A stretch of 10,595 nucleotides of DNA, taken from assembly GCA_028679275.1 (NCBI GenBank), contig JAJRBV010000075.1, positions 1-10,595 on the forward strand. The letters run 5' to 3'. The stretch is from Methanoregulaceae archaeon (GTDB lineage Archaea > Halobacteriota > Methanomicrobia > Methanomicrobiales > Methanospirillaceae). The translations under genes were made by a program, and so were the position numbers. Positions within the stretch are counted from its first letter, which is position 1; each line of letters begins with the position of its first letter. The notes below the pieces were generated by a model. The model was not told the DNA's origin, did no database searches, and saw only the letters and a list, made by a program, of their open reading frames with translations. Shown one piece after another: positions 1 through 10,595 of the stretch.

Positions 1-545
1 GTATCGGTGGTGAATGAGCAGGTGCGGTGGATGATGGCTATCGGGTCTCTGAGGCCTATCAGGAAGGCCGCGCCTCCGGCGGCAGCAGTGTACTCGAGGG
101 CATCGCTCGGCGCGCCCTGTGCAACATCCGAACCGATGGCAAATCCATACCGGATCATCTGGCTCTTTGCGAGTCCCATGCAGGTCTGGATCGCAGCGGT
201 TCCGGCCTTGCAGGCAAACTCGTAATCTGCTGCGGTCATGCAGGGGGTGGCCCCGATCGCCTCCCCGACCGTGCATGCCGTCGGCTTCACTGCGTACGGG
301 TGGGACTCCGAGCCTACGTATACTGCCCCTATCTCGCAGGGATCGACATCCCTTCTTCTGAGTGCGTTTCTTGCCGCCTCGACTGCGATGGTGGCTGTAT
401 CCTCATCAAGGTCCGGGACAGACTTCGAATACACTCCAAGTCCGCCTGTCACGTCATCGGCATTTGCGCCCCAGACCCGGGTGATCTCTTCCACCTTTAT
501 CCGGTAACGGGGGATATAGACCCCGTATGTGATGATTCCTACCAT
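1..545 (-). CDS. Hydroxymethylglutaryl-CoA synthase, archaeal type (3' part beyond left edge)
   Basis: The 181 visible N-terminal residues begin [16 protein letters not shown], typical of archaeal HMG-CoA synthase. This cytoplasmic enzyme condenses acetyl-CoA with acetoacetyl-CoA to HMG-CoA in the mevalonate route to isoprenoid lipids. Glu80 ([12 protein letters not shown]) and Cys112 ([10 protein letters not shown]) match the catalytic Glu and the acyl-accepting Cys of this thiolase-fold family. Archaeal members are about 350 residues, so roughly half is missing. The start at 545 lies inside the last codons of the upstream regulator (7-nt overlap), which implies translational coupling. In many archaea the acetoacetyl-CoA thiolase and a DUF35 protein follow this gene and would lie off the left edge; that is expectation, not observation. 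The family call is firm. Confidence 0.93.
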
Positions 546-1249
546 CGTTCATCCCTCAGGATTTCGCCTATCTCATCAATGCCCGTCATCGTGCAGAGCA
601 CGGTGATATGATCCCGCTCTGCCATCTTTGGCACGAGCGGGTGGACGAGCTCCGGTTCGATCCCCTGGAGAACCACGCATCGTGGTTTGAACGGGGTAAC
701 CCGTATCGCTACCATAGGGGACTTTCCGGAAGTCACATCGGTGAATATAAGTGCCCGCTCCGTGCTCCACCCGTATATCCGGTTGAACTCATTTGATGAG
801 AGCTGGGTAATTGCGTTGAGACTGTTGACAATCGTATAGCCGAAAATTGACTGGCTCAGGGAACCGCAGAGCGTTTTGCACGAGAGCAATTCGGCAAACC
901 TTGAAAGCATCACCGGTGAAGGGTAATCGAAGATGTCATAGATGACATTATCGTCAATATCGGTATACAGGATCTTTGCAAATTTTTTGATATACTTCCC
1001 GCCATTTGCCTCATCGATGGAAAGGATCGTATCGACGATTTTTCCAACGACAGCAGTGCCCGGGCTTTTTCTTCTCCCGCTCTCGTAATCGCTGATCACT
1101 GACGGGGAAACTTCGAGATGCTCACAGAGCACGCCCTGGGGAATGTTGAAACTCATTCTCCATTTCTTCAGGGCCTTGCCCGGAGAGTCTGAAAGCGTGA
1201 TCTCCCCTGCCATTTTTTCGGCAAGCAGATACCGCACATCAGATTTCAT
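539..1249 (-). CDS. HTH (XRE-like) transcriptional regulator, COG1709 type
   Basis: This 236-residue protein has an XRE-type helix-turn-helix at about residues 24-80; the segment [18 protein letters not shown] followed by [11 protein letters not shown] is the scaffold and recognition-helix region. Residues 90-236 form an archaeal C-terminal domain without a catalytic motif that I recognise. The length and position directly before HMG-CoA synthase resemble the COG1709 'predicted transcriptional regulator' that accompanies the synthase in other methanogens; that comparison is from memory. Its stop lies 7 nt inside the synthase gene, so the two are co-translated. It may regulate the mevalonate genes or itself; the ligand is unknown. 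The start at 1249 is supported by a TATA-like stretch about 30 bp upstream and no Shine-Dalgarno, so the mRNA is probably leaderless. Confidence 0.85.
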
Positions 1250-1273
1250 GCCACACTATGAGGGCAGGGGGGC

Positions 1274-1285
1274 TGATAAAATTAA
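1274..1285 (-). promoter_or_regulatory. Possible TATA box of the HTH regulator-HMG-CoA synthase operon
   Basis: On the minus strand this reads GTTAATTTTATC and sits about 25-36 bp before the start at 1249. It is the only AT-rich block in that stretch. The spacing fits a leaderless archaeal transcript. The match to the archaeal TATA consensus is moderate. Confidence 0.35.
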
Positions 1286-1325
1286 CGAACTCGGCTTCGA
1301 CATTTCACGAAATTTTTCCCATACG

Positions 1326-1364
1326 ATACTCATAAATAATAAGCATCTCAATTTTGATAAGTAT
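1326..1364. promoter_or_regulatory. Candidate operator: imperfect palindrome around the rbkR TATA box
   Basis: The left arm ATACTCATAA (1326-1335) and right arm TGATAAGTAT (1355-1364) are inverted with 8 of 10 matching positions, enclosing the TATA box and abutting the ATG. A direct repeat, ATAAGCAT (1339-1346) and ATAAGTAT (1357-1364), lies in the same region. RbkR proteins are known to bind palindromes upstream of riboflavin genes, so autoregulation is plausible. The region is AT-rich, so chance symmetry is possible. Confidence 0.3.
1332..1341 (+). promoter_or_regulatory. TATA box of the rbkR-ribB operon
   Basis: ATAAATAATA is centred about 28 bp before the ATG at 1365, placing transcription start at or within a few bases of the ATG. 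There is no Shine-Dalgarno before the ATG, so a leaderless mRNA is likely. Imperfect inverted arms flank the box (see 1326-1364). Confidence 0.5.
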
Positions 1365-2030
1365 ATGATCTTACCCGAGGATCTCCAGTGCCTGAAAGAG
1401 ATCGCCGTGAAGGGTGGACTGAAGGGGCCGGTGTGGGTCTCTTCCCAGTCTCTTGGGAGCGCGCTTGGCACGAGCCCGCAGACCGCTTCACGGCGACTCC
1501 AGTCGCTCGAGCGGAACCACCTCCTCTCCCGTTCGGTCAACCCTGACGGTCAGTATGTCACGATCACCCGGTACGGGGAGGAGCTGCTGCGGCATGAGTA
1601 TGCGGATTACTGCCGGGTATTTGGGAGCGGTCGGGAAGAATTCATACTCCAGGGTGCGGTGGTTTCCGGACTCGGGGAAGGCAGGTATTACATGAGCCTT
1701 GAACCCTATGTGCGGCAGTTCTCTGAAAAGATCGGGTTTGCTCCCTATCCGGGGACCCTGAACATCAGGCTTGAACCATCCAGCATCCAGATACGAAAAC
1801 GGCTGGACCAGCTGGAATGGGTAAGGATACAGGGATTTTCAGCGGAAGGCCGTACATTCGGCGACGCCCGCTGCCTGCCCTGCAGGATAGAGGGTATTCC
1901 CTGCGGCATCGTAATCCCGGGAAGATCCCATTACCCGGACGATGTCCTCGAACTGATTGCACCAGTGTCTCTCCGGGAGTCGCTCCGGGTGAATGATATG
2001 GATGAAGTGAAGGTTGAGGTGGCCCCATGA
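1365..2030 (+). CDS. ribK: CTP-dependent riboflavin kinase with N-terminal HTH (RbkR)
   Basis: This 221-residue protein has two parts. Residues 1-85 form a winged HTH, with the recognition region SPQTASRRLQSLERNHLL. Residues 90-221 form the DUF120 kinase domain, with GLGEGRYY (102-109), the stretch GFAPYPGTLNIRL and the segment IPGRSHYPDDVLELIAP. The kinase makes FMN from riboflavin using CTP, as in Methanocaldococcus MJ0056; FAD synthesis needs a separate enzyme. The combined architecture matches RbkR, an archaeal regulator of riboflavin genes that is also a kinase. The frame opens further upstream (1143), but that extension overlaps the divergent regulator and the promoter. ATG 1365 fits the domain start and the TATA spacing. 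Its stop overlaps the ribB start (ATGA), forming an operon. Confidence 0.92.
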   Translation: MILPEDLQCLKEIAVKGGLKGPVWVSSQSLGSALGTSPQTASRRLQSLERNHLLSRSVNPDGQYVTITRYGEELLRHEYADYCRVFGSGREEFILQGAVVSGLGEGRYYMSLEPYVRQFSEKIGFAPYPGTLNIRLEPSSIQIRKRLDQLEWVRIQGFSAEGRTFGDARCLPCRIEGIPCGIVIPGRSHYPDDVLELIAPVSLRESLRVNDMDEVKVEVAP

Positions 2031-2704
2031 TTGACGATGCATTGAAAGCCCTGCGGGAAGGGAAGTTCATCCTGCTCTATGATTTTGATGACCGGGAGTG
2101 TGAAACGGATTTTGCCATACGCTCTGACATGGTGCGCCCGGCAGATATTGCCCTGATGCGTAAAGATGGCGGCGGGCTTATCTGTACAGCGATTCATCCG
2201 GATGCAGCAGAACATCTCGGGCTGCCGTTTGCCAGTGAAGTGCTCCGTACCCGCACCGGTATCGCAGAAACAGTCGGGGATATCCCCTACGACCGGAAAA
2301 ACCACTCCTCGTTCTCACTCTGGGTGAACCATCGGGATACCTTTACCGGAATCACTGATAATGACAGGGCACTCACCATTACAGCCATTGCAGACCAGGT
2401 GAAACGGAGCCTGAACGGGGGAGGGTGCGACTTCCGCAGCCGGTTCCGATCACCCGGCCATGTGGCAATACTCAGAGCGGCCGAAGGACTTCTTTCCAGG
2501 AGGAGAGGCCAGACCGAGCTCTCTATTGCGATGGCGATCATGGCCGGGATCACCCCTGCTGTAACCGTCTGCGAGATGCTCGATGACCGATCAGGTCTTG
2601 CACTCTCCAAGAAGGATGCACAGGACTATGCGCGGAACCATAAGCTGGTATTCATTGAGGGAGACGATGTTCTTGAGGCATGGGACAGGCGATCGTCTCT
2701 TTGA
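2027..2704 (+). CDS. ribB: 3,4-dihydroxy-2-butanone 4-phosphate synthase
   Basis: This 225-residue enzyme converts ribulose 5-phosphate to 3,4-dihydroxy-2-butanone 4-phosphate plus formate, supplying the four-carbon unit of riboflavin. It carries the acidic metal/substrate loop YDFDDRECETDF (Glu24, Glu26), the GLICTAIHPD segment (51-60), the FTGITDNDRALTI segment (106-118), RSPGH (141-145) and the C-terminal VCEMLDD (181-187). The usual GHTE motif, whose His is a metal ligand in characterised enzymes, reads GQTE here (Gln162, codon 2510-2512). All other hallmarks are intact and the length is normal, so activity is likely but the change is worth noting. It is not fused to a GTP cyclohydrolase II domain, as is usual in archaea. 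It follows rbkR with an ATGA overlap. Confidence 0.93.
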   Translation: MIDDALKALREGKFILLYDFDDRECETDFAIRSDMVRPADIALMRKDGGGLICTAIHPDAAEHLGLPFASEVLRTRTGIAETVGDIPYDRKNHSSFSLWVNHRDTFTGITDNDRALTITAIADQVKRSLNGGGCDFRSRFRSPGHVAILRAAEGLLSRRRGQTELSIAMAIMAGITPAVTVCEMLDDRSGLALSKKDAQDYARNHKLVFIEGDDVLEAWDRRSSL

Positions 2705-2713
2705 TAGGGCGCT

Positions 2714-2735
2714 CCCCCTTTTCACTATCCCTTTT
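2714..2735 (+). terminator. Possible T-run terminator after ribB
   Basis: Two short pyrimidine-rich T runs (2719-2722 and 2732-2735) follow the ribB stop by 14-31 bp without a hairpin. Archaeal RNA polymerase can terminate on T runs alone, but these are short. Confidence 0.25.
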
Positions 2736-2765
2736 CTGAATCATGCAGATCCCGGCCTGCCTGAA

Positions 2766-2814
2766 CCGGCATGAATATCCCGGATGTTCCGGGAACTATA
2801 CTGGTTCATGCCGG
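2766..2814. repeat. Nested inverted repeat (two perfect stems)
   Basis: The outer arms CCGGCATGAA (2766-2775) and TTCATGCCGG (2805-2814) are perfect 10-bp complements. Inside them, TCCCGGA (2778-2784) and TCCGGGA (2788-2794) form a 7-bp stem with a TGT loop. The structure lies about 60 bp after ribB, with a TTTTT run further on at 2868-2872. It could be a 3' UTR structure, part of a small RNA, or a protein-binding palindrome. Confidence 0.7.
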
Positions 2815-2908
2815 ATTACCCATCCCGGGTATGGCAGCAATCCGGGCTGTGATACCGGTTTACCGCCTTTTTCCTTTGAATACAATCCTTCCGAAAATCT
2901 CTGTCCCC

Positions 2909-2914
2909 TATAAA
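2909..2914 (+). promoter_or_regulatory. TATA-like box without a following gene
   Basis: TATAAA within CCTATAAAC in a GC-rich surrounding. Transcription would start near 2935-2938. No gene follows at the right distance, so it may drive a small RNA or be fortuitous. Confidence 0.3.
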
Positions 2915-2935
2915 CGCCGCTGATGGCCAGTACCG

Positions 2936-3022
2936 GACAGGGACAGCGGGATGGTGACAGGAATCATCAATCGTGCAGGGTGTGTATTGGGGTACCTGCG
3001 TGTACCCCTGCCCCGTGTTTTT
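2936..3022 (+). ncRNA. Speculative small RNA candidate
   Basis: The expected transcription start from the TATAAA at 2909-2914 and the hairpin plus TTTTT at 2989-3022 would bound a transcript of about 87 nt. I recognise no known RNA family (not a tRNA, and no clear box C/D motifs). Support is structural only. Confidence 0.2.
2989..3022 (+). terminator. Hairpin followed by T run
   Basis: GGGGTAC (2989-2995) and GTACCCC (3002-3008) form a perfect 7-bp stem with a 6-base loop. A TTTTT run lies at 3018-3022, nine bases after the stem. The gap is longer than in a classic intrinsic terminator. Confidence 0.35.
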
Positions 3023-3035
3023 CGAACTTAAAACA

Positions 3036-3103
3036 GAGGTTCCCCTCTCACAGGTTACTGAAGCATACTAGACTGAAGGGAAAACCAGAGCAGGGGGAAC
3101 CTC
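3036..3103. repeat. 10-bp perfect inverted repeat with 48-bp spacer
   Basis: GAGGTTCCCC (3036-3045) and GGGGAACCTC (3094-3103) are exact complements. Each arm can also fold locally: GAGG/CCTC around TTCC on the left, GGGG/CCCC on the right. This could be alternative RNA folding or the ends of a tiny repeat element. I see no target duplication. Confidence 0.6.
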
Positions 3104-3182
3104 CCCTCGATCTCGAAACCGGTGAAATCGCGGAAGCAGTTCTCTGCCCCGTGCAGGGTATTGCTGTTGGATAACCCGGTAC

Positions 3183-3344
3183 TCATTTTTTTGCAAGTGT
3201 CAAAAGAGCTTCATCAGGGAGAAGCTTGGCAATGGAGCTCTTTGTCGGGCAGCGCCCGGTTTTGATCCCCCGTGCCTTTGCCTCCTCCTTCAGCACTTTC
3301 AGGTCAAGGTTTTTGACCAGTTCAGCCCTTTTCTTTTCATCCAT
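3183..3344 (-). CDS. Small SAP-like hypothetical protein
   Basis: This 53-residue lysine-rich protein contains [17 protein letters not shown] followed by [13 protein letters not shown]. The pattern of two helices joined by a G-x-K-T-G-like turn resembles SAP or Rho-N type DNA-binding modules. The frame extends upstream to an ATG at 3377, but I chose ATG 3344 because a TATA-like CCTTTATTG (3375-3383) would start transcription near 3353, downstream of that alternative. It lies 49 bp after the RPA-associated gene on the same strand and probably has its own promoter. A nucleic-acid binding role is inference from the fold pattern and location. It is short enough that its status as a gene is not certain. 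Confidence 0.6.
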
Positions 3345-3374
3345 CGTTGATCGGACGGAAATGTCTTTGCAGAA

Positions 3375-3383
3375 CAATAAAGG
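3375..3383 (-). promoter_or_regulatory. Possible TATA box of the SAP-like gene
   Basis: The minus-strand sequence CCTTTATTG is centred 35 bp before ATG 3344, giving a predicted leader of about 10 nt. It lies in the gap after the RPA-associated gene. Confidence 0.35.
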
Positions 3384-3393
3384 TTACTACCAA

Positions 3394-3987
3394 TCACATC
3401 CGTAACTGCGAGAGTGCGTCAAACACCATCTTCCGGAACACCGCGGGATCGGTATGGTACTCCTTCTGCGCCCTCTCCCCGTACGGGGTCGCTCCCATCC
3501 GGTCAATACGGTCAAGGGTGGCGAGAGAACAGTCGAGTACCCAGCGGTCCCTCGTGTCCTTGTCAACCGCAGTAACTGATTCGCACCGGATCGAGATCAG
3601 GGTCGCCCCATCAGGGGTTTCGTACACGTTCGGTTTTCCGGTAACTGCCACAAACGAGGGGGCTTCGATCCGTGCGATCTGCTGCATCGCTTCAGGCTGG
3701 TAACTCCCTGCCATGATGAAGAACGTGCCAGTCGGATCCACCACCCTCGCCCGGTAGAACATGTTCTGCTCTCCCTGCTTCTTCTTCTCTGTGAGGGTAC
3801 CGACAAGAAACACCCTGTTACATCGTTCTCCTGTCGGAAGGAGCACATACGTTGGGCTCTTTTCATCCTCCCCTTCCCGGAAGTGAATCCGGGTCTCCCG
3901 GAGTTCTGCGGCAAACACCCTCCGGGCAGGTTCCCGCTCGAATGTTCCCTCCCTTCGTGCAAAGGAAGGTCTATCCGGCATCGCCAT
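3394..3987 (-). CDS. RPA-associated OB-fold protein (COG3390, RPAP type)
   Basis: This 197-residue protein resembles the archaeal COG3390 family, described as an RPA-complex or RPA-associated subunit. An OB-fold core spans about residues 55-145, with RVFLVGTLTEK, the strand FYRARVVDPTGTFFIMAG (77-94), and FVAVTGKPNVYETPDG (112-127). The C-terminal helix region (175-197) ends in FRKMVFDALSQLRM. No zinc cluster is present. The ATG shares one base with the stop of the RPA large subunit (TGATG), so the two are translationally coupled and probably form a complex protecting single-stranded DNA in replication and repair. In haloarchaea the equivalent rpa operons often carry a phosphoesterase gene too; none is here. 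Confidence 0.85.
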   Translation of the reverse strand: MAMPDRPSFARREGTFEREPARRVFAAELRETRIHFREGEDEKSPTYVLLPTGERCNRVFLVGTLTEKKKQGEQNMFYRARVVDPTGTFFIMAGSYQPEAMQQIARIEAPSFVAVTGKPNVYETPDGATLISIRCESVTAVDKDTRDRWVLDCSLATLDRIDRMGATPYGERAQKEYHTDPAVFRKMVFDALSQLRM

Positions 3988-5228
3988 CAGAATGACCCCC
4001 CAGCCCTGTTCAGGAGTCCCGGTATCTCACCCGGATCAAAGTGAAGGAATCCGCATTCGGACACCAGAATCCGCTGGTCTATCTCCCTCCCCCTGCAGGT
4101 GAGGTACCGCCCGAGTATCCGCTCCCGTACCCGCAGGAACACTTCGTCCATACCGAGAGGATTATTCTCTGCAAGTTCTTTCGATTCGTGAATTGACATG
4201 CCGGTCAGCTGCTCCGTCGCCTCTCGCTGAACCAGAATCTCACGGGTTTCCCAGCCGTTATCCAGCCACCCCTTAATCCGGAGATCATAGAGAAATCCCG
4301 GCTGGATCTCATGCACCGGGCAGTAATTCTGACGGGAGAGAACACGGTTGCATCCTTCCACCGGGCACCGCTTGATGAGTCCGGACCCGGGTGCGATATG
4401 CACTAGTGCCCCGGAAAATACACCCTCGCCACCGCTTACCGGGATGTCCCCATCCTCGGGAAGAATCGTTGCGGTGGTGAGGTTGAGTGAGATGCGACCC
4501 TGATACTCGTCAACCAGGGCATAGTAGATGCTGTATACCGTACCCGGGACAAGTCGTTCCTTTCCCTCCTCTTTCCATATTACGAATTTTACGGTTCCTG
4601 ATTCATCGCCAACAAGTCCGGACTGGAGCATACGGTCATGGCTGGCTTCCCACTCCTGGATGAATTTTCCTCTGATACTTCCGATACCGGGTGTCAGGTC
4701 CCTTATCGGTATAGTCTTTGGGATCAACGGGGTTTCACTGGTGATCTCCTTTATTGTGGTCCCTGAATGGACCTTTACATTAGGGGATCCCTTATACTCA
4801 TCCACTACTACCGACTCGAAACGGTACCATGAGCCGACTGACAACCGCGGTGCATTTGCTTTTACCCAGACCACAAACCGCATCGCACCCGTGGAATCAG
4901 CAAGGATTCCTGTCTGGGAGATTGCACTTGAGTAGGATCCGGAGAGCGATACGACTTTTGCCTCGATGGTAGCCCAGTCCCCGGACGAGAGCTCGCGAAG
5001 CAGTTTCTTCTCTCCGGCTGCACCGGCAGACCCGGAACCGAGGTCCGGGATGGCGAGGTCACGGGCAAGCTCGTTTAACACGGTACGTTCGGCTTCCTGA
5101 GGCGGCACCCCGAACTCTTCGATGAGACGACGGAGTTTTCCCTCGATTTTTGCCGTATCGGCCTGGTGGCCTTTTGCACTTACTTTCAGGGAGATTCTTT
5201 CCGTTATACTGGAATAATCCATGTTCAT
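3987..5228 (-). CDS. Replication protein A large subunit (archaeal RPA, multiple OB folds with zinc finger)
   Basis: This 413-residue single-stranded DNA binding protein has a helical N-terminus (1-60), OB fold 1 (about 85-163, with ILADSTGAMRFVVW), and OB fold 2 (about 182-256, with LVGDESGTVKFVIW). The C-terminal OB region (about 265-395) contains a Cys3-His zinc finger, with Cys288, Cys293, Cys303 and His306. The two D-S/E-S-TG-x-x-x-F-V-V/I-W strands are the usual RPA OB pattern. It coats ssDNA during replication, recombination and repair. The start at 5228 follows GGAG at 5233-5236 by 4 nt; ATG 5222 (third residue, 10-nt spacing) is an alternative. A TATA-like box lies 33-42 bp upstream. 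It is the first gene of the operon with the RPA-associated protein. Confidence 0.92.
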   Translation of the reverse strand: MNMDYSSITERISLKVSAKGHQADTAKIEGKLRRLIEEFGVPPQEAERTVLNELARDLAIPDLGSGSAGAAGEKKLLRELSSGDWATIEAKVVSLSGSYSSAISQTGILADSTGAMRFVVWVKANAPRLSVGSWYRFESVVVDEYKGSPNVKVHSGTTIKEITSETPLIPKTIPIRDLTPGIGSIRGKFIQEWEASHDRMLQSGLVGDESGTVKFVIWKEEGKERLVPGTVYSIYYALVDEYQGRISLNLTTATILPEDGDIPVSGGEGVFSGALVHIAPGSGLIKRCPVEGCNRVLSRQNYCPVHEIQPGFLYDLRIKGWLDNGWETREILVQREATEQLTGMSIHESKELAENNPLGMDEVFLRVRERILGRYLTCRGREIDQRILVSECGFLHFDPGEIPGLLNRAGGSF

Positions 5229-5260
5229 ACATCTCCAGCACTAGCTAGAACTATCATTCA

Positions 5261-5270
5261 TAGATAAATG
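5261..5270 (-). promoter_or_regulatory. TATA box of the RPA operon
   Basis: On the minus strand CATTTATCTA is centred about 37 bp before ATG 5228. The predicted transcript start near 5240 leaves a leader of about 11 nt that includes the GGAG ribosome-binding site at 5233-5236. Confidence 0.45.
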
Positions 5271-5307
5271 ATCCGGGCGGGTAGCGAAAATGATAGCACC
5301 AGCTGCA

Positions 5308-5317
5308 GATTTAAGTA
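5308..5317 (+). promoter_or_regulatory. TATA box of the DUF1858 gene
   Basis: GATTTAAGTA is centred about 29 bp before ATG 5342, predicting an almost leaderless transcript. The GAGG at 5337-5340 is only one base from the ATG, too close for a normal Shine-Dalgarno. Confidence 0.5.
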
Positions 5318-5341
5318 CCTGCACCCTCAAACAATAGAGGT

Positions 5342-5536
5342 ATGGAAATTACGGCTGACAGCACAATTTACGACCTTCTGAAAGCAAAGCCTGAATCGGC
5401 CGAAGTGCTCTTCAAATTCGGGATGGGCTGTGTAGGATGTGCAATCGCACGCGGAGAAACAATCCGCGAAGCAGCCATGGTCCACGGGATCCCTCTTGAA
5501 GAACTCACGGCTGCACTGGGTATCAGGGAAGCCTGA
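5342..5536 (+). CDS. DUF1858 protein (hybrid-cluster-protein-associated redox disulfide domain)
   Basis: This 64-residue protein begins MEITADSTIYDLLKAKP and carries GMGCVGCAIARGETIREAA with a CxxC pair at Cys30 and Cys33, followed by HGIPLEELTAAL. This is the DUF1858 / 'redox disulfide' domain, often found next to or fused with hybrid cluster proteins in anaerobes. The CxxC pair suggests thiol redox chemistry or metal binding; the actual substrate is unknown. No hybrid cluster protein gene lies beside it here. It is transcribed alone, divergently from the RPA operon, and ends at a hairpin terminator (5558-5580). The length is normal for single-domain members. Confidence 0.88.
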   Translation: MEITADSTIYDLLKAKPESAEVLFKFGMGCVGCAIARGETIREAAMVHGIPLEELTAALGIREA

Positions 5537-5557
5537 AGAAGGCGGGGAGGGAATACC

Positions 5558-5580
5558 GGCGTGTCGACTCACGCCTTTTT
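5558..5580 (+). terminator. Hairpin-T-run terminator of the DUF1858 gene
   Basis: GGCGTG (5558-5563) and CACGCC (5570-5575) form a perfect 6-bp stem with loop TCGACT, followed directly by TTTTT (5576-5580). It starts 22 bp after the DUF1858 stop and overlaps the stop codon of the convergent cbiZ gene. Confidence 0.6.
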
Positions 5581-6450
5581 CCCGCTGGTTCTTTCCTTTG
5601 TTTTCAGTTCCAGGAGCGATGCCTCGGGATTTTGCATGAGATAGTCTGCAATTCCGGGATTGTGAAGGAGGGTGCAGCCTGCACAATTCCATACAGGTCT
5701 GTTTTTTGTAGTGCTTTTTACCCATTCCCCAAGGGATTCATCACCGCACGGATAAAAGGGGCAGTAGCAGAAATCACAGCGCTGCCCGTCAAAATGACAG
5801 GGATAATACGGGCAGGCCCGGGGCAGCCATTCGACCCAGTGGTCCCCGCCGTACCTCGAGAAAATGAAGTAGGAGGGGGCATCCCGAATCACGGTGCCCT
5901 CGTACCGCAGCAAGGCTTCAGGCACCCCGAAGAGAACCGCTGCATGGATCCTCCTGCCGGCTTCCGTAAGGGTTCCTGCATACGGGTGCACAACAGGTCC
6001 TTCCGAGGCAACGATTACCGCATCGGTGGGAGTTCCGGAAAAAAGGTGCCCTAGTCCCCTGAGCGCATCTGACTTTGCCTCAGTAGCCGTGATGATCCCC
6101 CCTGTGAGGGCAGCATCGGACATTCCCTGACCGCTGTGGAGGATAATATTAATAGTACCGCAGGATCCCGTATGAATCCCCGCGGAGATGAAAACGGTCA
6201 TAAAATCATACTGGAGGATGCAGAGGTGCTGCATCTTCACGGCGGTGATCAACCCGAAAAAATCACCCGGGAGCCCTTCTCGTGAAGTAACTGTGGAGAG
6301 CTCGCGGAGAGGATCCTGTTCATGCCAGTCCGGGGGCACCGTATGGTTAAGGAGCGTGCTGACCGTGCCGATTCCGCCCCCTGCACCCGTGCTTACCGAG
6401 CGGAACCTGCCCCGGACAAAGAGGGTGCCTTCCCGGAGATAGTACCTCAT
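5569..6450 (-). CDS. cbiZ: Adenosylcobinamide amidohydrolase (CbiZ) fused to a cysteine-rich domain
   Basis: This 293-residue protein has residues 1-200 matching CbiZ, with MRYYLREGTLFVRGRF, the STGAGGGIG turn (20-28), STLLNHTVPPDW (31-42) and MSDAALTGGIITATEAKSDAL (110-130, a key block). CbiZ removes the aminopropanol side chain from adenosylcobinamide to give adenosylcobyric acid, salvaging scavenged corrinoids. Residues 205-285 form a cysteine-rich small domain (PF04071-like), with Cys213, 218, 225, 228, 230, 235, 256 and 259, probably binding metal. This appendage recurs with cobalamin genes. The frame opens 18 codons earlier (6504), but ATG 6450 overlaps the upstream stop as ATGA and matches the usual CbiZ N-terminus, so I prefer it. 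It is the second gene of a two-gene operon. Confidence 0.87.
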   Translation of the reverse strand: MRYYLREGTLFVRGRFRSVSTGAGGGIGTVSTLLNHTVPPDWHEQDPLRELSTVTSREGLPGDFFGLITAVKMQHLCILQYDFMTVFISAGIHTGSCGTINIILHSGQGMSDAALTGGIITATEAKSDALRGLGHLFSGTPTDAVIVASEGPVVHPYAGTLTEAGRRIHAAVLFGVPEALLRYEGTVIRDAPSYFIFSRYGGDHWVEWLPRACPYYPCHFDGQRCDFCYCPFYPCGDESLGEWVKSTTKNRPVWNCAGCTLLHNPGIADYLMQNPEASLLELKTKERTSGKKA

Positions 6451-6809
6451 ACGACCGTGTAACGCGTCCGGTCCTTCAATTCCTGCTGCTTCCCGGCGTT
6501 CCATCCGGAAACTTCCTGGAGATACCCGGTCACCCTGCTTATCTGGACGACATCATGAGAACCGCAGTCGGGGCATACCGGTTCCCCGCAGAGGGGACAA
6601 TACTCAATCCCCGAAATAATCTCGTGGGAGCAGTGGCAGTGGTCAAGGGGGCACATGATCAGGAGGTGTTCCTCGCCGCACTGCGGGCAGGGCTTCTCAT
6701 CGACTATGAGATGACAGGTGTGACACTTATAACGCCGCTCGGCAACGGGGATGTCTTCAAGCTTCCTGTACTTTTCAGCCAGTTTCTGCTGTTCCTCGCT
6801 CCATTGCAT
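6447..6809 (-). CDS. Small NrdD C-terminus-like zinc protein (annotated elsewhere as anaerobic ribonucleotide reductase)
   Basis: This 120-residue protein is rich in Cys pairs: CHTC (29-32), CPQC (41-44), CPLDHCHC (53-60), CPLC (71-74) and CPDC (79-82). Its last 45 residues copy the C-terminal end of class III ribonucleotide reductase NrdD: the four-Cys zinc site followed by SRVTGYL (91-97, with Gly95 at the glycyl-radical position) and the GWNAGKQQELKDRTRY tail. The roughly 500-residue catalytic barrel is absent, so it cannot reduce nucleotides alone. It may supply or replace a radical domain, bind metal, or act as a regulator. The promoter (6831-6840) predicts a leaderless mRNA. Its stop overlaps the cbiZ start (ATGA). 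Similar small proteins carry the NrdD name in methanogen genomes, from memory. Confidence 0.75.
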   Translation of the reverse strand: MQWSEEQQKLAEKYRKLEDIPVAERRYKCHTCHLIVDEKPCPQCGEEHLLIMCPLDHCHCSHEIISGIEYCPLCGEPVCPDCGSHDVVQISRVTGYLQEVSGWNAGKQQELKDRTRYTVV

Positions 6810-6907: not shown

Positions 6908-7543
6908 TCACAGGCGGAGAGGGGCAAACTGTGCAGCAGCAGAAGCCGGGTCGGGGGAGCTGTAGATCTGGCGGCCGACGATGATACCATCCACGAGTCC
7001 CGCAAGAAGGGCGGGATCGCCGCCCTGGGCGCCGACACCAGGGGAATAGATCTTCTTTTCTCCAACAATGTTCCGTAACAGAAGGACGCGGTCCGGCCGG
7101 GTGGCTGGTGCAATGATGCCATCTGCCCCAAGCCTGATCGCGAGTTCTGCGATACGTTCGGCGACACCCCCATGGAAAAACTCTTCTGCACCGGGGTGGC
7201 TCATCTCGGCAACGATAAAACATTCCCCGCCGTGTTCATGGGCTGAACTGATACATGCCTCTGCCGAATCGCCACCGGTAAAACCATGACAGATGATCCC
7301 TGAGAACCCGCGCGAGAAGACCTGCCCTGCGATAAGGCGGTTTGTGTTCGGGATGTCAGCGACCTTGAAGTCAGCGATCAGGGGAAGACCCGTTGCCCGG
7401 AGTTCTCCAGCAATGGAAAGACCCGATGAGAGCACCAGGGGGTACCCAATCTTGATCGCATCGATGTACGGGGCGCACTGCCCTGCAATGCGGAGTGCAT
7501 CAACCTTACTGGTAACATCAAGGGCAAGGATCAGCCGGGTCAT
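6908..7543 (-). CDS. pyrF: Orotidine 5'-phosphate decarboxylase
   Basis: This 211-residue TIM-barrel enzyme catalyses the last step of UMP synthesis, decarboxylating OMP. It shows the N-terminal substrate strand LILALDV (4-10), KIGYPLV (31-37), the catalytic DFKVADIPNTN (58-68, with the Asp58-Lys60-Asp63 array), HGFTGGDS (86-93), APATRPDR (145-152), the phosphate-binding SPGVGAQGGDP (167-177) and GIIVGRQIYSS (186-196). The length is normal for archaeal enzymes. Its ATG overlaps the stop of the upstream deoxyhypusine synthase-family gene (ATGA), so it is translated from that gene's transcript. I see no convincing terminator in the roughly 100 bp before the next gene. Confidence 0.95.
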   Translation of the reverse strand: MTRLILALDVTSKVDALRIAGQCAPYIDAIKIGYPLVLSSGLSIAGELRATGLPLIADFKVADIPNTNRLIAGQVFSRGFSGIICHGFTGGDSAEACISSAHEHGGECFIVAEMSHPGAEEFFHGGVAERIAELAIRLGADGIIAPATRPDRVLLLRNIVGEKKIYSPGVGAQGGDPALLAGLVDGIIVGRQIYSSPDPASAAAQFAPLRL

Positions 7544-8469
7544 CGCTCGATCCGCTCCAGCACAGCCGCGACCAGCATCGGCAGGGTGATGGTTGCGTCA
7601 CCATATACGGTAACCGCTGAAGCATCCTCAGTAATTTTACCCCATGACCGTGCTTCATCAAGGGTAGCACCGGAAAGCCCTCCGAGATCCGGCCGGTCCC
7701 CGGTCAACTGGACTGCGTAGGTGAACCCCTTCGGTGTCATCAGCATACTCTGGAGGATGAAATTCTTCGGCACACCTCCACCAATGAGCAATGCGCCGGC
7801 CCTTTCTGCGGTGAAACAGCGATCGATCAGATCTTTCATATCAGAGAATGCATCGACTGAGATTTTTCCTTGCTGGGAAAAAAGCCAGCACTGGAGGCCT
7901 ATCATCGAGTCGGCTACCGCTGGACAGTACACGGGTACACCTTCTGCTGCTGCCGTGGCGAGAATCCCTCGGTCGAGCCGGCGCCCGAGCAGAGTCATCA
8001 GCTCTGTGATAGCATATCCTCTCCCGGGATCGAGCGAAGCAAGAGAATCCTGGATGAAATGCTCAAACGTGATAAACGCATCATTCGGGAGGTATACATC
8101 ATAAATGCGGTTTATCTCGTCCTGCCTGAGCTCGATGTCAGAACAGAACGCGGAGCCGTGATAATGCCGGCATCCGAGTGCCTCGATGATATCGTGGGTG
8201 AGATTGGCCCCGGTGCTGACAAGGACATCGATATGTCCGCGTGAGATGAGATCGCTCACGATGCCACCCATTCCGGCAGGGACCATCGCACCTGCAAGCC
8301 CGAAAAACTTCACGATGTTCCTGTCAGTAAGCATCCTTTCATAGATATCTGAAGCCCGGGCAAGCGCCCCCCCGTTATACGCTCCTGCCCTGGCGAGCTG
8401 GCGCATCAGCTCGTCCACGCTCATCCCCGGCCGTAGCGATACCTGCTCAACGGGCTGCCCGAATTCCAT
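7540..8469 (-). CDS. Deoxyhypusine synthase family protein (DHS-like)
   Basis: This 309-residue enzyme belongs to the NAD-dependent deoxyhypusine synthase family: STGANLTHDI (85-94), the FxGLAGAMVPAGMGGIVSDL segment (55-74) and SWGKI (275-279) with the active-site Lys278. Canonical DHS transfers an aminobutyl group from spermidine to a lysine of aIF5A. Here the GGGVxKH motif reads GGGVPKNF, so the position of the catalytic His (human His288) is Asn236. The block TGDRPDLGGLSGATLDEA resembles bacterial and methanogen 'deoxyhypusine synthase-like' proteins more than canonical DHS. The substrate may therefore be aIF5A or a free polyamine (homospermidine-type synthesis); I cannot decide from sequence. 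It has its own promoter and is coupled to pyrF. Confidence 0.88.
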   Translation of the reverse strand: MEFGQPVEQVSLRPGMSVDELMRQLARAGAYNGGALARASDIYERMLTDRNIVKFFGLAGAMVPAGMGGIVSDLISRGHIDVLVSTGANLTHDIIEALGCRHYHGSAFCSDIELRQDEINRIYDVYLPNDAFITFEHFIQDSLASLDPGRGYAITELMTLLGRRLDRGILATAAAEGVPVYCPAVADSMIGLQCWLFSQQGKISVDAFSDMKDLIDRCFTAERAGALLIGGGVPKNFILQSMLMTPKGFTYAVQLTGDRPDLGGLSGATLDEARSWGKITEDASAVTVYGDATITLPMLVAAVLERIER

Positions 8470-8500: not shown

Positions 8501-8584
8501 GTGCGTTTACAAAGGCGCCTGACTTCAGGATGATGGTGAAGAGGGGAACAGCAGAAGGAATCTTTTCGTTTTCCCGGGTCAGAA

Positions 8585-8608: not shown

Positions 8609-10595
8609 ATGCAAGCACCTCTGTCACTACCCGGTCTGATTGAGCAGTACTACGCCCGTCGCTCGCATTTTGCGGAGGGGGATACAGGCAGACGGGAGAT
8701 ATGCAGGAGCTTCATCGATCCGGTCCTGGGATATCTTGGATGGGAACCGGTGGAATCCCGGGGATGCAGAACCCGGAAGATCGGGTTTACGCGGGAGGTT
8801 CCCGTCCGTATCTCCGGCCGGGTAACCTGTATCGATTATGTTCTCTGCACCGGTTCAGGGGGCGTTCTTGCAATCATGGTCGGGAATCATTCCGCTGCCG
8901 GTTTATTTTCTGCAAAGACCGTTCTCGATCTCCGCAGGTATGCCTGGAGCGCCGGACTCCGGCTCGCCATCTTCACGAACTTCGGGGAATCCGCTGTATA
9001 CGATGCCACGATCCCGGTGCAATACGGAGACGATGAAGCCACAGCACGGATTGCCACGGTCACCGCTGACCAGTTCGTAGAGCGGTGGGATCGGATTGTG
9101 GGATTGATCTCCCGGGAATGCGTTTTGAGGGGATCACGGGACATTTCCCTTCAGGAGAAGGGTGATGAAGAGAAGGAATGCGGGGTCGGGCAGATGCTCA
9201 GTGCCGACCTCGAAGAGTGGCGGCTCCACCTCGCCAAAAGAATTGCCCTCCGTAACCATGGTCTTTCTGCGGAGTCCATCAACGAGGTGGTGCAGCACAT
9301 CATAACCCGGATCCTGTTTCTCCGTATCGCAGAGGACAGGGGGATCGGGCAGTACGGGCAGCTTTGCAGGGTCACTGAGGGGGGTTTTGCCTATGGCAGG
9401 CTCTGCGGACTTTTCAGGCATGCTGAGGATGAATATGGTAAGGGGCTTTTCTGTTTTGGAGAAGGAACACACACGAACGAGTCTGCCGATACGCTGACGC
9501 TCACCCTGCTCATCGATGACGAACCGATAAAAAACATCATCACCCAACTCTCTCCTCCGAAGAGCCCGTACGAGTTCTCGGTCATCCCAGCGCAAATCCT
9601 CGCTGAGGCATTTTCCCTGTTCCTTGGGAAGGTGATCCGGCTTACCCCCGGGAATCATGCACTCGTGGAGGAGCGTCCCGAAATACGGAAGGCCGGAGGT
9701 CCTTCCGGCACTCCGCGGGAGATAGCGGAATACATCGTGAGAAAAACCCTTGATGAGCGCGTGACTGGAAAAACACCCCGGGATCTTGCAGGTATCCATG
9801 TGCTCGATCCCGCCTGCGGATCCGGGCTTTTCCTGGTCAATGCGTTTGAATACCTCCTTGACTGGCATCTCAGCTGGTATACTGATAACCTTGTACCTGC
9901 CATAGAGCGGGGGGATTCCTCTCCTGGTGAGATCGGGGGTTTCCTTCATGGACCGGAGAAGGAGGGGGAACCAGGGCGTGTCCTCCCTGTCACCCGCTCC
10001 AGAGGGAGTGAGGGGAATTCAATACGGGAAGAGACAATCTGGGAACTTACGGCAGATGAGAGAAAGAGGATCCTGCTTGCCATGATTTTTGGGGTGGACA
10101 TCGACATGAGGGCGGTCCAGACAACCAGGCTCCTCCTCCTTGTAAAATTTATTGAAAGCTTTGATAACAACGGCGGCCTCCCCCTCCCGGATCTTTCCGG
10201 AACTATCCGGTGCGGAAATTCACTTGTCGGGTCCGATATTGTTGAGGATCCTGATGCATCCCTGATCGATCCCCGCTCACGGGAACGGCTCCGTGTGTTC
10301 GACTGGGAAGACGCATTCCCTGGAATCATGGCATCGGGAGGTTTTGACGCGGTCGTTGGTCATCTCCCACGATTTCGCAGGGAAACGCTCAGGGGAGAGA
10401 AGGAGTATCTTGAAAAACGGTACAGGACGTATTCCGGAACGGCAGAGCTTTATCACTGCTTTATTGAGAAAGGAATCTCGCTTCTCAGGCCGGGGGGACA
10501 GTTCTCCGCCATCTTACCTGATGCATGGCTGCGTGCGGACCATGGAACGATGCTCCGGGTATTCCTGGGCGGATTAGGAATACGGGAGATCATCG
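8609..10595 (+). CDS. Type IIG (Eco57I/MmeI-like) restriction-modification protein with degenerate catalytic motifs (runs off right edge)
   Basis: The frame is open from ATG 8609 to the edge: 662 codons with no stop. Residues 1-165 resemble the N-terminal PD-(D/E)xK nuclease of type IIG enzymes, with FIDPVLGYLGWE (35-46), IDYVLC (75-80), LRRYAWSAGL (108-117) and FTNFGE (122-127). A helical region (195-345) includes ITRILFLRIAEDRG. The gamma-type N6-adenine methyltransferase follows, with DPACGSGLFL (400-409, AdoMet site), IFGVDIDMRAV (493-503) and CGNSLVGSD (535-543). Downstream family residues (KRYRTYSGTAELY, LLRPGGQFSAILP) are intact. The catalytic NPPY motif reads HLPR (585-588) and the nuclease ExK reads VGN (91-93). 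A polar insertion (437-471) follows motif I. The target-recognition domain would lie beyond the edge. Either this is a pseudoenzyme or it uses unusual catalysis. Confidence 0.88.
   Translation, partial: MQAPLSLPGLIEQYYARRSHFAEGDTGRREICRSFIDPVLGYLGWEPVESRGCRTRKIGFTREVPVRISGRVTCIDYVLCTGSGGVLAIMVGNHSAAGLFSAKTVLDLRRYAWSAGLRLAIFTNFGESAVYDATIPVQYGDDEATARIATVTADQFVERWDRIVGLISRECVLRGSRDISLQEKGDEEKECGVGQMLSADLEEWRLHLAKRIALRNHGLSAESINEVVQHIITRILFLRIAEDRGIGQYGQLCRVTEGGFAYGRLCGLFRHAEDEYGKGLFCFGEGTHTNESADTLTLTLLIDDEPIKNIITQLSPPKSPYEFSVIPAQILAEAFSLFLGKVIRLTPGNHALVEERPEIRKAGGPSGTPREIAEYIVRKTLDERVTGKTPRDLAGIHVLDPACGSGLFLVNAFEYLLDWHLSWYTDNLVPAIERGDSSPGEIGGFLHGPEKEGEPGRVLPVTRSRGSEGNSIREETIWELTADERKRILLAMIFGVDIDMRAVQTTRLLLLVKFIESFDNNGGLPLPDLSGTIRCGNSLVGSDIVEDPDASLIDPRSRERLRVFDWEDAFPGIMASGGFDAVVGHLPRFRRETLRGEKEYLEKRYRTYSGTAELYHCFIEKGISLLRPGGQFSAILPDAWLRADHGTMLRVFLGGLGIREII

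Follow-up and report, generated by a model that had tools for sequence, protein, structure and literature searches.

A Type IIG restriction-methyltransferase gene of Methanoregulaceae that has lost both catalytic centres and may be kept for DNA binding

What keeps a restriction enzyme gene in place when its product seems able neither to cut nor to methylate? The usual fates ascribed to restriction enzymes are continued activity, survival as an orphan methyltransferase once the nuclease is lost, and decay. The window analysed here, a stretch of 10,595 nucleotides from a Methanoregulaceae archaeon that makes up the whole of contig C15 (JAJRBV010000075.1) in a 1.01-Mb assembly (64% complete), ends in a gene of the Type IIG restriction-methyltransferase kind, and in its lineage of methane-making archaea both activities have been lost yet the gene has been kept. 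We put at roughly one in two the probability that both centres were lost and that the product persists without catalysis as a protein whose main job is sequence-specific DNA binding; that it is a conserved non-catalytic protein, whatever its job, we regard as very probable.

The preliminary description of this DNA had read HLPR in place of the catalytic NPPY (motif IV) in a relative of Eco57I, and both the letters (residues 579–590, FDAVVGHLPRFR) and Pfam, in which PF07669 Eco57I covers residues 493–652 with 88.3 bits against a cut-off of 25.3, bear this out. The S-adenosylmethionine (AdoMet) site is intact, as it had said, and the frame does run unbroken to the contig end (Table 1). Turning CAT-CTC-CCA-CGA into N-P-P-Y takes at least five base changes; the number proposed earlier was at least four. 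The Type IIG model of PADLOC (REase_MTase_IIG, PDLC03604) covers residues 7–653 with 320.6 bits, well ahead of DrmMI (60.7) and PglX (45.8). Full-length relatives have 992–1028 residues, and the recognition domain PF12950 lies above the cut-off in three of them or of their kin (P0002, P0013, P0122), that of the window copy falling beyond the contig end. The nuclease-like part of the window protein has no Pfam nuclease match, and PF04313, which does match two of the active relatives (P0024 and P0041), is absent from P0001, P0002, P0013 and P0122.

The loss of motif IV is shared. Among the best 120 of 7748 homologues, P0001–P0017 lack NPPY and the other 102 carry it except P0040 (KPPY), leaving out of the counts P0042, which at 470 residues stops short of motif IV. 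Searching again, now with 13 aligned clade members as query, added P0121 (NLPG) and P0122 (EPPH), and NPPY is missing in 19 of the 19 clade members whose motif IV can be read, where it is replaced by HLPR, HLPG, HLPM, HLPW, HPPH, DLPM, SFPA, YLPG, NLPG or EPPH. HLPR is thus neither a lone mutation nor the mark of a single odd strain, and chance or a sequencing error is likewise ruled out: [NDS]PP[YFW] occurs nowhere in the 19 clade proteins and in 98 of 99 active relatives, which upholds the earlier argument against a single error. The same count disposes of a second NPPY past the contig edge, as none is found anywhere in the clade proteins, the full-length ones included. The call of a canonical motif IV took in the KPPY of P0040; this protein and P0146 (NQPY) both retain nuclease EAK and group among the actives, and P0052, active by motif IV, has KAEK at the nuclease site.

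The nuclease centre has gone as well. In the 16 clade proteins with letters at the PD-(D/E)XK residues, K94 is found in none and E92 in one, as against at least 97% of the 99 actives for each residue, and the closest relatives outside the clade (43–46% identity) nearly all have both NPPY and the nuclease ExK. A comparison of 18 clade members with the 99 actives gave 276 columns in which uniformity among the actives reaches at least 97%; the clade keeps 121 of these and has lost 61, among them nuclease E92 and K94 and motif IV N584, P585 and Y587 (P0002 numbering). Motif I, GVDID and CGNSL are retained, with G536, N537 and S538 of CGNSL invariant across 23 aligned sequences, dead and active; a few relatives vary motif I (DPACSSG, DPACRSG, DPACGPG, DSACGSG). 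The intact motif IV of an orphan adenine methyltransferase is missing from the window protein, which, measured against a Type IIG enzyme, lacks the nuclease residues and motif IV and has the AdoMet motif I, its longer kin also having a recognition domain in the same chain.

Within the clade the N position of motif IV is taken by H, D, S, Y or N and the Y position by H, G, M, A, R or W, and this variation makes the site look unused rather than redesigned. It also argues against a changed chemistry, in which the pocket would work on another substrate (RNA, a modified base) through an unusual motif IV, since a catalytic site does not evolve by such drift. We hold this explanation to be very unlikely, even though the clade retains the AdoMet motif and related proteins of about 800 residues conserve a new motif, G[AS]PPPYRPF: a third search with one of them (from G043) as query gave 292 matches, and among the 120 listed none has NPPY, 103 have APPP and eight SPPP. 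Six such proteins at the locus described below (L078, L079, L084, L087, L090, L096) keep N-P-P and have lost the aromatic residue alone, which would suit a changed chemistry too and makes their loss of activity less certain than that of the window clade.

A gene without catalysis could simply be decaying, and selection bears on this. The ratio of nonsynonymous to synonymous substitution rates (dN/dS), estimated by Nei-Gojobori on stop-to-stop frames that include a few pre-start codons, is 0.31 (L043-L044, dS 0.23), 0.29 (window-L041, 681 codons, dS 0.70), 0.28 (L041-L042, dS 1.23), 0.24 (L042-L044) and 0.25 (L042-L043), with YN00 giving 0.41, 0.33, 0.23, 0.28 and 0.28 as second estimates in the same order. 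Partial copies in G005 give 0.23–0.43 and pairs of the 800-residue type 0.17–0.31. Neighbour genes in the same pairs have 0.05–0.15, and active pairs 0.04 (L045-L050, 494 codons, dS 1.9; identical with the pair L045-L112), 0.13 and 0.19. In 100-codon windows of four pairs the ratio runs from 0.12 to 0.56 and no region is released. Judged by these ratios, the gene is under purifying selection across its whole length. According to the slow-decay explanation, the gene was once a selfish restriction gene, is now being lost and has no function; in favour of this are a dN/dS higher than in neighbours and active pairs, two truncated members and an empty site in four of 12 genomes. We think it distinctly unlikely, because dN/dS stays flat at 0.24–0.31 from dS 0.23 to 1.23, dead relatives occur in several genera, and no stop interrupts the 13 full-length clade members and P0122, nor do internal stops occur in the gene copies of the seven occupied genomes. 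Under neutrality at the observed dS, stop-free outcomes numbered 0 of 1000 simulated runs for each of three pairs from the window clade and nine of 1000 for the close 800-residue pair L092-L093. The stops or frameshifts and the dN/dS near 1 of a pseudogene are thus not what is found here. With the fixed place and the conserved recognition domain, the low dN/dS points to a pseudoenzyme that is being conserved, not to a gene in decay. Co-option as a pseudoenzyme, which the preliminary description had proposed, is supported by the clade-wide loss of NPPY and by a dN/dS well under 1 along the full length; of the signature it expected, a clade sharing HLPR or another non-NPPY motif at low dN/dS, both parts were found, with HLPR itself not fixed.

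The place of the gene in the chromosome is constant. It sits at the junction of dhs (deoxyhypusine synthase) and tiaS in seven of 12 genomes of the genus, with both flanks seen in four. In G003 and G010 it stands alone between dhs and tiaS (both by Pfam), followed by a 305-residue protein and then by what we read as a thermosome gene; in G008 and G011 the contig with the gene also bears dhs and a scrap of tiaS; G005 has each flank on a separate contig, G004 shows the tiaS flank and the window the dhs flank, tiaS falling past its contig end. The site is empty in G001, G006, G007 and G009, where the tiaS and dhs matches lie about 40–60 bases apart, and in G002 neither flank was found. A second copy in the window's own genome, suggested by contig C184 (L001, G000), is doubtful, as 191 identical bases overlap between it and C28 of another assembly (L040, G010), so that at least one of the two contigs has probably been binned into the wrong genome.

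The company of the gene lends no support to a defence role, which had been suggested earlier: its neighbours look like housekeeping genes. In L041 and L042 they are dhs, tiaS and genes for a CbiZ-like and a zinc-ribbon protein (Pfam), further ones being, in our own reading, pyrF, RPA and a thermosome gene, and no companion genes of BREX PglX or DISARM DrmMI were found beside it at these two loci. Nor is a second gene conserved alongside it except the housekeeping neighbours, which counts against the view that the protein is a non-catalytic companion to some active methyltransferase, as METTL14 is to METTL3. The retained fold and AdoMet site would suit such a partner, and other PF07669 proteins exist in G003 (632 residues, NPPW), G008 (1327 residues, NPPY) and G005 (two, of 491 and 503 residues). 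These differ in length, and G010 and G011 (88 and 89% complete) have no other PF07669 protein, other methyltransferase families lying outside that search; we consider this the least likely of the explanations weighed here.

The gap between tiaS and dhs often measures 3.5–33 kb in a second genus, g5, to which Methanoregula formicica belongs. Twenty intervals with a large gap were sampled (one from another genus; seven reached the dhs side only and L089 the tiaS side only), and 18 hold a relative of about 800 residues that lacks the nuclease domain and has an altered motif IV; an NPPY enzyme occupies one (G116, Methanoregula sp. fen_60), and one (G033) has no family member. A second NPPY case at the locus, in fen_80 (G117), is split across two contigs. 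As the place accepts both active and dead forms, this junction of two core genes may be a hotspot for insertions; the two genera may plausibly have inherited the occupied locus from a common ancestor. Across the junctions inspected (L041, L042, L045, L066, L078-L097, L099-L102) many genomes are empty and others are filled with about 3.2–33 kb. The 800-residue, nuclease-less Eco57I-like proteins with changed motif IV (L066, L078-L080, L082-L085, L087-L097, L107) lie between tiaS and dhs or beside one of them in Methanoregula-like genomes.

How old the loss is was addressed with two trees. In the first (84 rows, nuclease and motif IV columns excluded, midpoint rooted) the actives stand apart from the dead rows except L068 (GHPPSTL), which falls among the actives and implies at least one further independent loss; midpoint rooting left the direction undecided and the long branches L075 and L077 were joined. 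The second (46 rows, site-mixture model) has outside actives L131, L053, L049 and L119 and is rooted on L131; rows absent from it include L060, L066, L068, L069, L074, L075, L077, L084, L087, L088, L090, L093, L094 and L097. In this rooted tree all 24 dead rows form one clade nested among actives (support 98/99), within which the window clade with P0122 has 100/100 and the 800-residue type 84/79, and actives and dead rows separate in 98% of 200 bootstrap trees. By this topology the loss of motif IV is old and shared, with a root that is likely rather than certain since L131 is a long branch. Remoter relatives without recognisable NPPY (L118, L120-L129, L133-L143, L075, L077, L060, L069) occur in about nine further Methanoregulaceae genera; they share neighbours within three groups (g6 and g4; g11, g8 and g14; g16), g15, g7 and g10 being represented by one genome each, and degenerate relatives of other genera stand mostly outside the trees.

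If catalysis is gone, the recognition domain is where a remaining function might show. It is the most variable of seven parts in the actives, where its mean entropy is 1.56 as against 1.13 among 13 members of the clade. When pairs are binned by identity of the methyltransferase part, its identity in clade and active pairs, respectively, is 0.55 (n=19) and 0.43 (n=295) at 0.60–0.65, 0.59 (n=7) and 0.47 (n=1141) at 0.65–0.70, 0.75 (n=3) and 0.50 (n=2034) at 0.70–0.75, and 0.83 (n=6) and 0.60 (n=288) at 0.85–0.90; as the pairs are not independent, this is a pattern to which no p-value attaches. The nuclease-like part is reversed in most bins (0.54 vs 0.59, 0.58 vs 0.62, 0.81 vs 0.88), the exceptions being 0.73 vs 0.65 at 0.70–0.75 and 0.93 (one pair) vs 0.92 at 0.90–0.95. 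The dead 800-residue type (104 sequences) follows the same recognition-domain trend from 0.60 upward. Such a trend fits the keeping of one binding surface without switching of specificity. AlphaFold2 models of P0002 (61 sequences) and P0186 (46 sequences), with a predicted local distance difference test of 81.6 and 85.4 and a predicted TM-score of 0.75 and 0.74, both match DNA-bound adenine methyltransferases, CamA on top, a shared fold being no proof of binding.

The models also match methyltransferase structures determined together with the DNA mimic Ocr (8q56, 9ex7, 8zek, 7eew, 2y7c), which would be in line with the main rival, a decoy or sensor: the dead enzyme would lure viral anti-restriction proteins that mimic DNA, so that active systems are spared or a response is set off. 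Bait needs no catalysis, the gene evolves fast relative to its neighbours, and G003 has other methyltransferase-like open reading frames (NPPW, DPPF), so there may be something to protect. Still, no effector is adjacent among the housekeeping-like neighbours of L041 or L042, and bait need not keep its recognition domain more conserved than active enzymes do; we judge this explanation unlikely.

Upstream of the gene, the element GGAATCTTTTCG is exact in three of seven copies and has a single mismatch in the other four, which suggests a kept promoter or self-regulation. The remaining neighbourhood of the window (539–6809) encodes, by Pfam, a helix-turn-helix regulator, a CTP-dependent riboflavin kinase, a DHBP synthase, a CbiZ-like protein and a zinc-ribbon protein.

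Table 1. Positions in the window of the gene, its motifs and its flanking elements.
Feature	Position	Strand	Remark
Pseudo-Type IIG gene	8609..10594	+	662 codons, open to right contig end
Nuclease-like N-terminal domain, residues 1-180	8609..9148	+	No Pfam nuclease match
G92-N93-H94 at nuclease E-x-K position	8882..8890	+	Alignments; Asp76 kept, codon 8834
Motif I DPACGSG, AdoMet site, residues 400-406	9806..9826	+	Intact
D497-I-D499 of GVDID	10097..10105	+	Kept in dead and active relatives
CGNSL, residues 535-539	10211..10225	+	Alignment
Motif IV, HLPR instead of NPPY, residues 585-588	10361..10372	+	His585 codon begins at 10361
GGAATCTTTTCG, candidate promoter or operator element	8557..8568	+	40 nt 5' of start codon
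Deoxyhypusine synthase (dhs), divergent left neighbour marking the locus	7540..8469	-	Pfam

We therefore return to the DNA-binding protein. Among the ancestors of this lineage a Type IIG gene would have been stripped of both catalytic centres, and the dead protein, with its AdoMet pocket and recognition domain retained and both chemistries gone, would bind a DNA sequence and stay bound, acting to regulate genes or to organise the chromosome, perhaps with AdoMet as its ligand or gate. From the motifs and domains we infer that the window protein binds AdoMet and DNA, and likewise that stable binding to one DNA sequence is its function. Several observations weigh against this. A dN/dS about two to six times that of the neighbours, and above that of the three active pairs, means that constraint is relaxed; nor is it absolute, as P0005 (703 residues) and P0007 (762 residues), two of the 18 database clade members, lack a normal C-terminus, which also tells against co-option. 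The empty sites make the gene dispensable, and the root rests on a single long-branched row, L131, with L053 and L049 adjacent. Conservation of the recognition domain could reflect contacts with proteins rather than DNA; the structural matches have a large root-mean-square deviation (CamA 18.7 Å), so that domain positions differ; and in six genomes the upstream 12-mer has no exact copy besides those at such a locus, so that no regulon is seen.

If DNA binding is true, these genes would show how a restriction enzyme can turn in nature into a DNA-binding regulator, and a usefulness apart from catalysis becomes testable. Wider still, Methanoregulaceae might hold an old dead restriction-enzyme family of single origin, with the nuclease domain lost in one branch, that became AdoMet-sensing, sequence-specific DNA binders (regulators or chromosome organisers) and is now counted as Type IIG restriction-modification, a picture that we offer tentatively and consider doubtful. 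Annotation by domains does mistake these dead genes for functional restriction-modification systems. For Methanomicrobiales, a survey of restriction-modification across the archaea puts Type IIG genes at more than one per genome, and nowhere in its main text do the terms inactive, degenerate or pseudogene appear (PMC10609329); some of the genes so counted may encode dead proteins. No description of a conserved inactive Type IIG family was found in the open-access literature searched, most subscription papers lying outside it.

Compared with known systems, the window protein shares with Type IIG enzymes of the Eco57I/MmeI/BpuSI kind the order of domains, PF07669, PF12950 (in full-length relatives) and collinearity over residues 7–653, and differs from them in the loss of both catalytic centres and of a PF04313 match. 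The 800-residue Methanoregula proteins, such as P0186 of M. formicica (annotated as Eco57I methylase; row L063 in the rooted tree), belong to the same dead clade and tiaS-dhs place and also have a changed motif IV (G[AS]PPPYRPF, NPPEG, NPPDG, NLPDG and others), without a nuclease domain. CamA, M.BseCI and M.TaqI (PDB 8cxs, 7qw7, 2adm) have the same fold of methyltransferase and recognition domain, and are active enzymes with an NPPY-type motif IV. METTL14 and DNMT3L are eukaryotic dead methyltransferase partners with a conserved fold and no catalysis; they come from unrelated lineages, and no partner was found for the window clade. DnmA/YeeA of Bacillus subtilis is an MmeI homologue without restriction motif that the host has retained and that methylates GACGAG; according to the published study, the substitution Y465A removes the base-flipping Tyr and abolishes methylation, raising the half-maximal effective concentration for DNA four-fold with DNA scanning judged intact (PMC9973331). 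DnmA was thus inactivated by an engineered change only, whereas the window clade lost its methyltransferase residues in nature, and by analogy Y465A would be the closest experiment to the proposed binding without catalysis.
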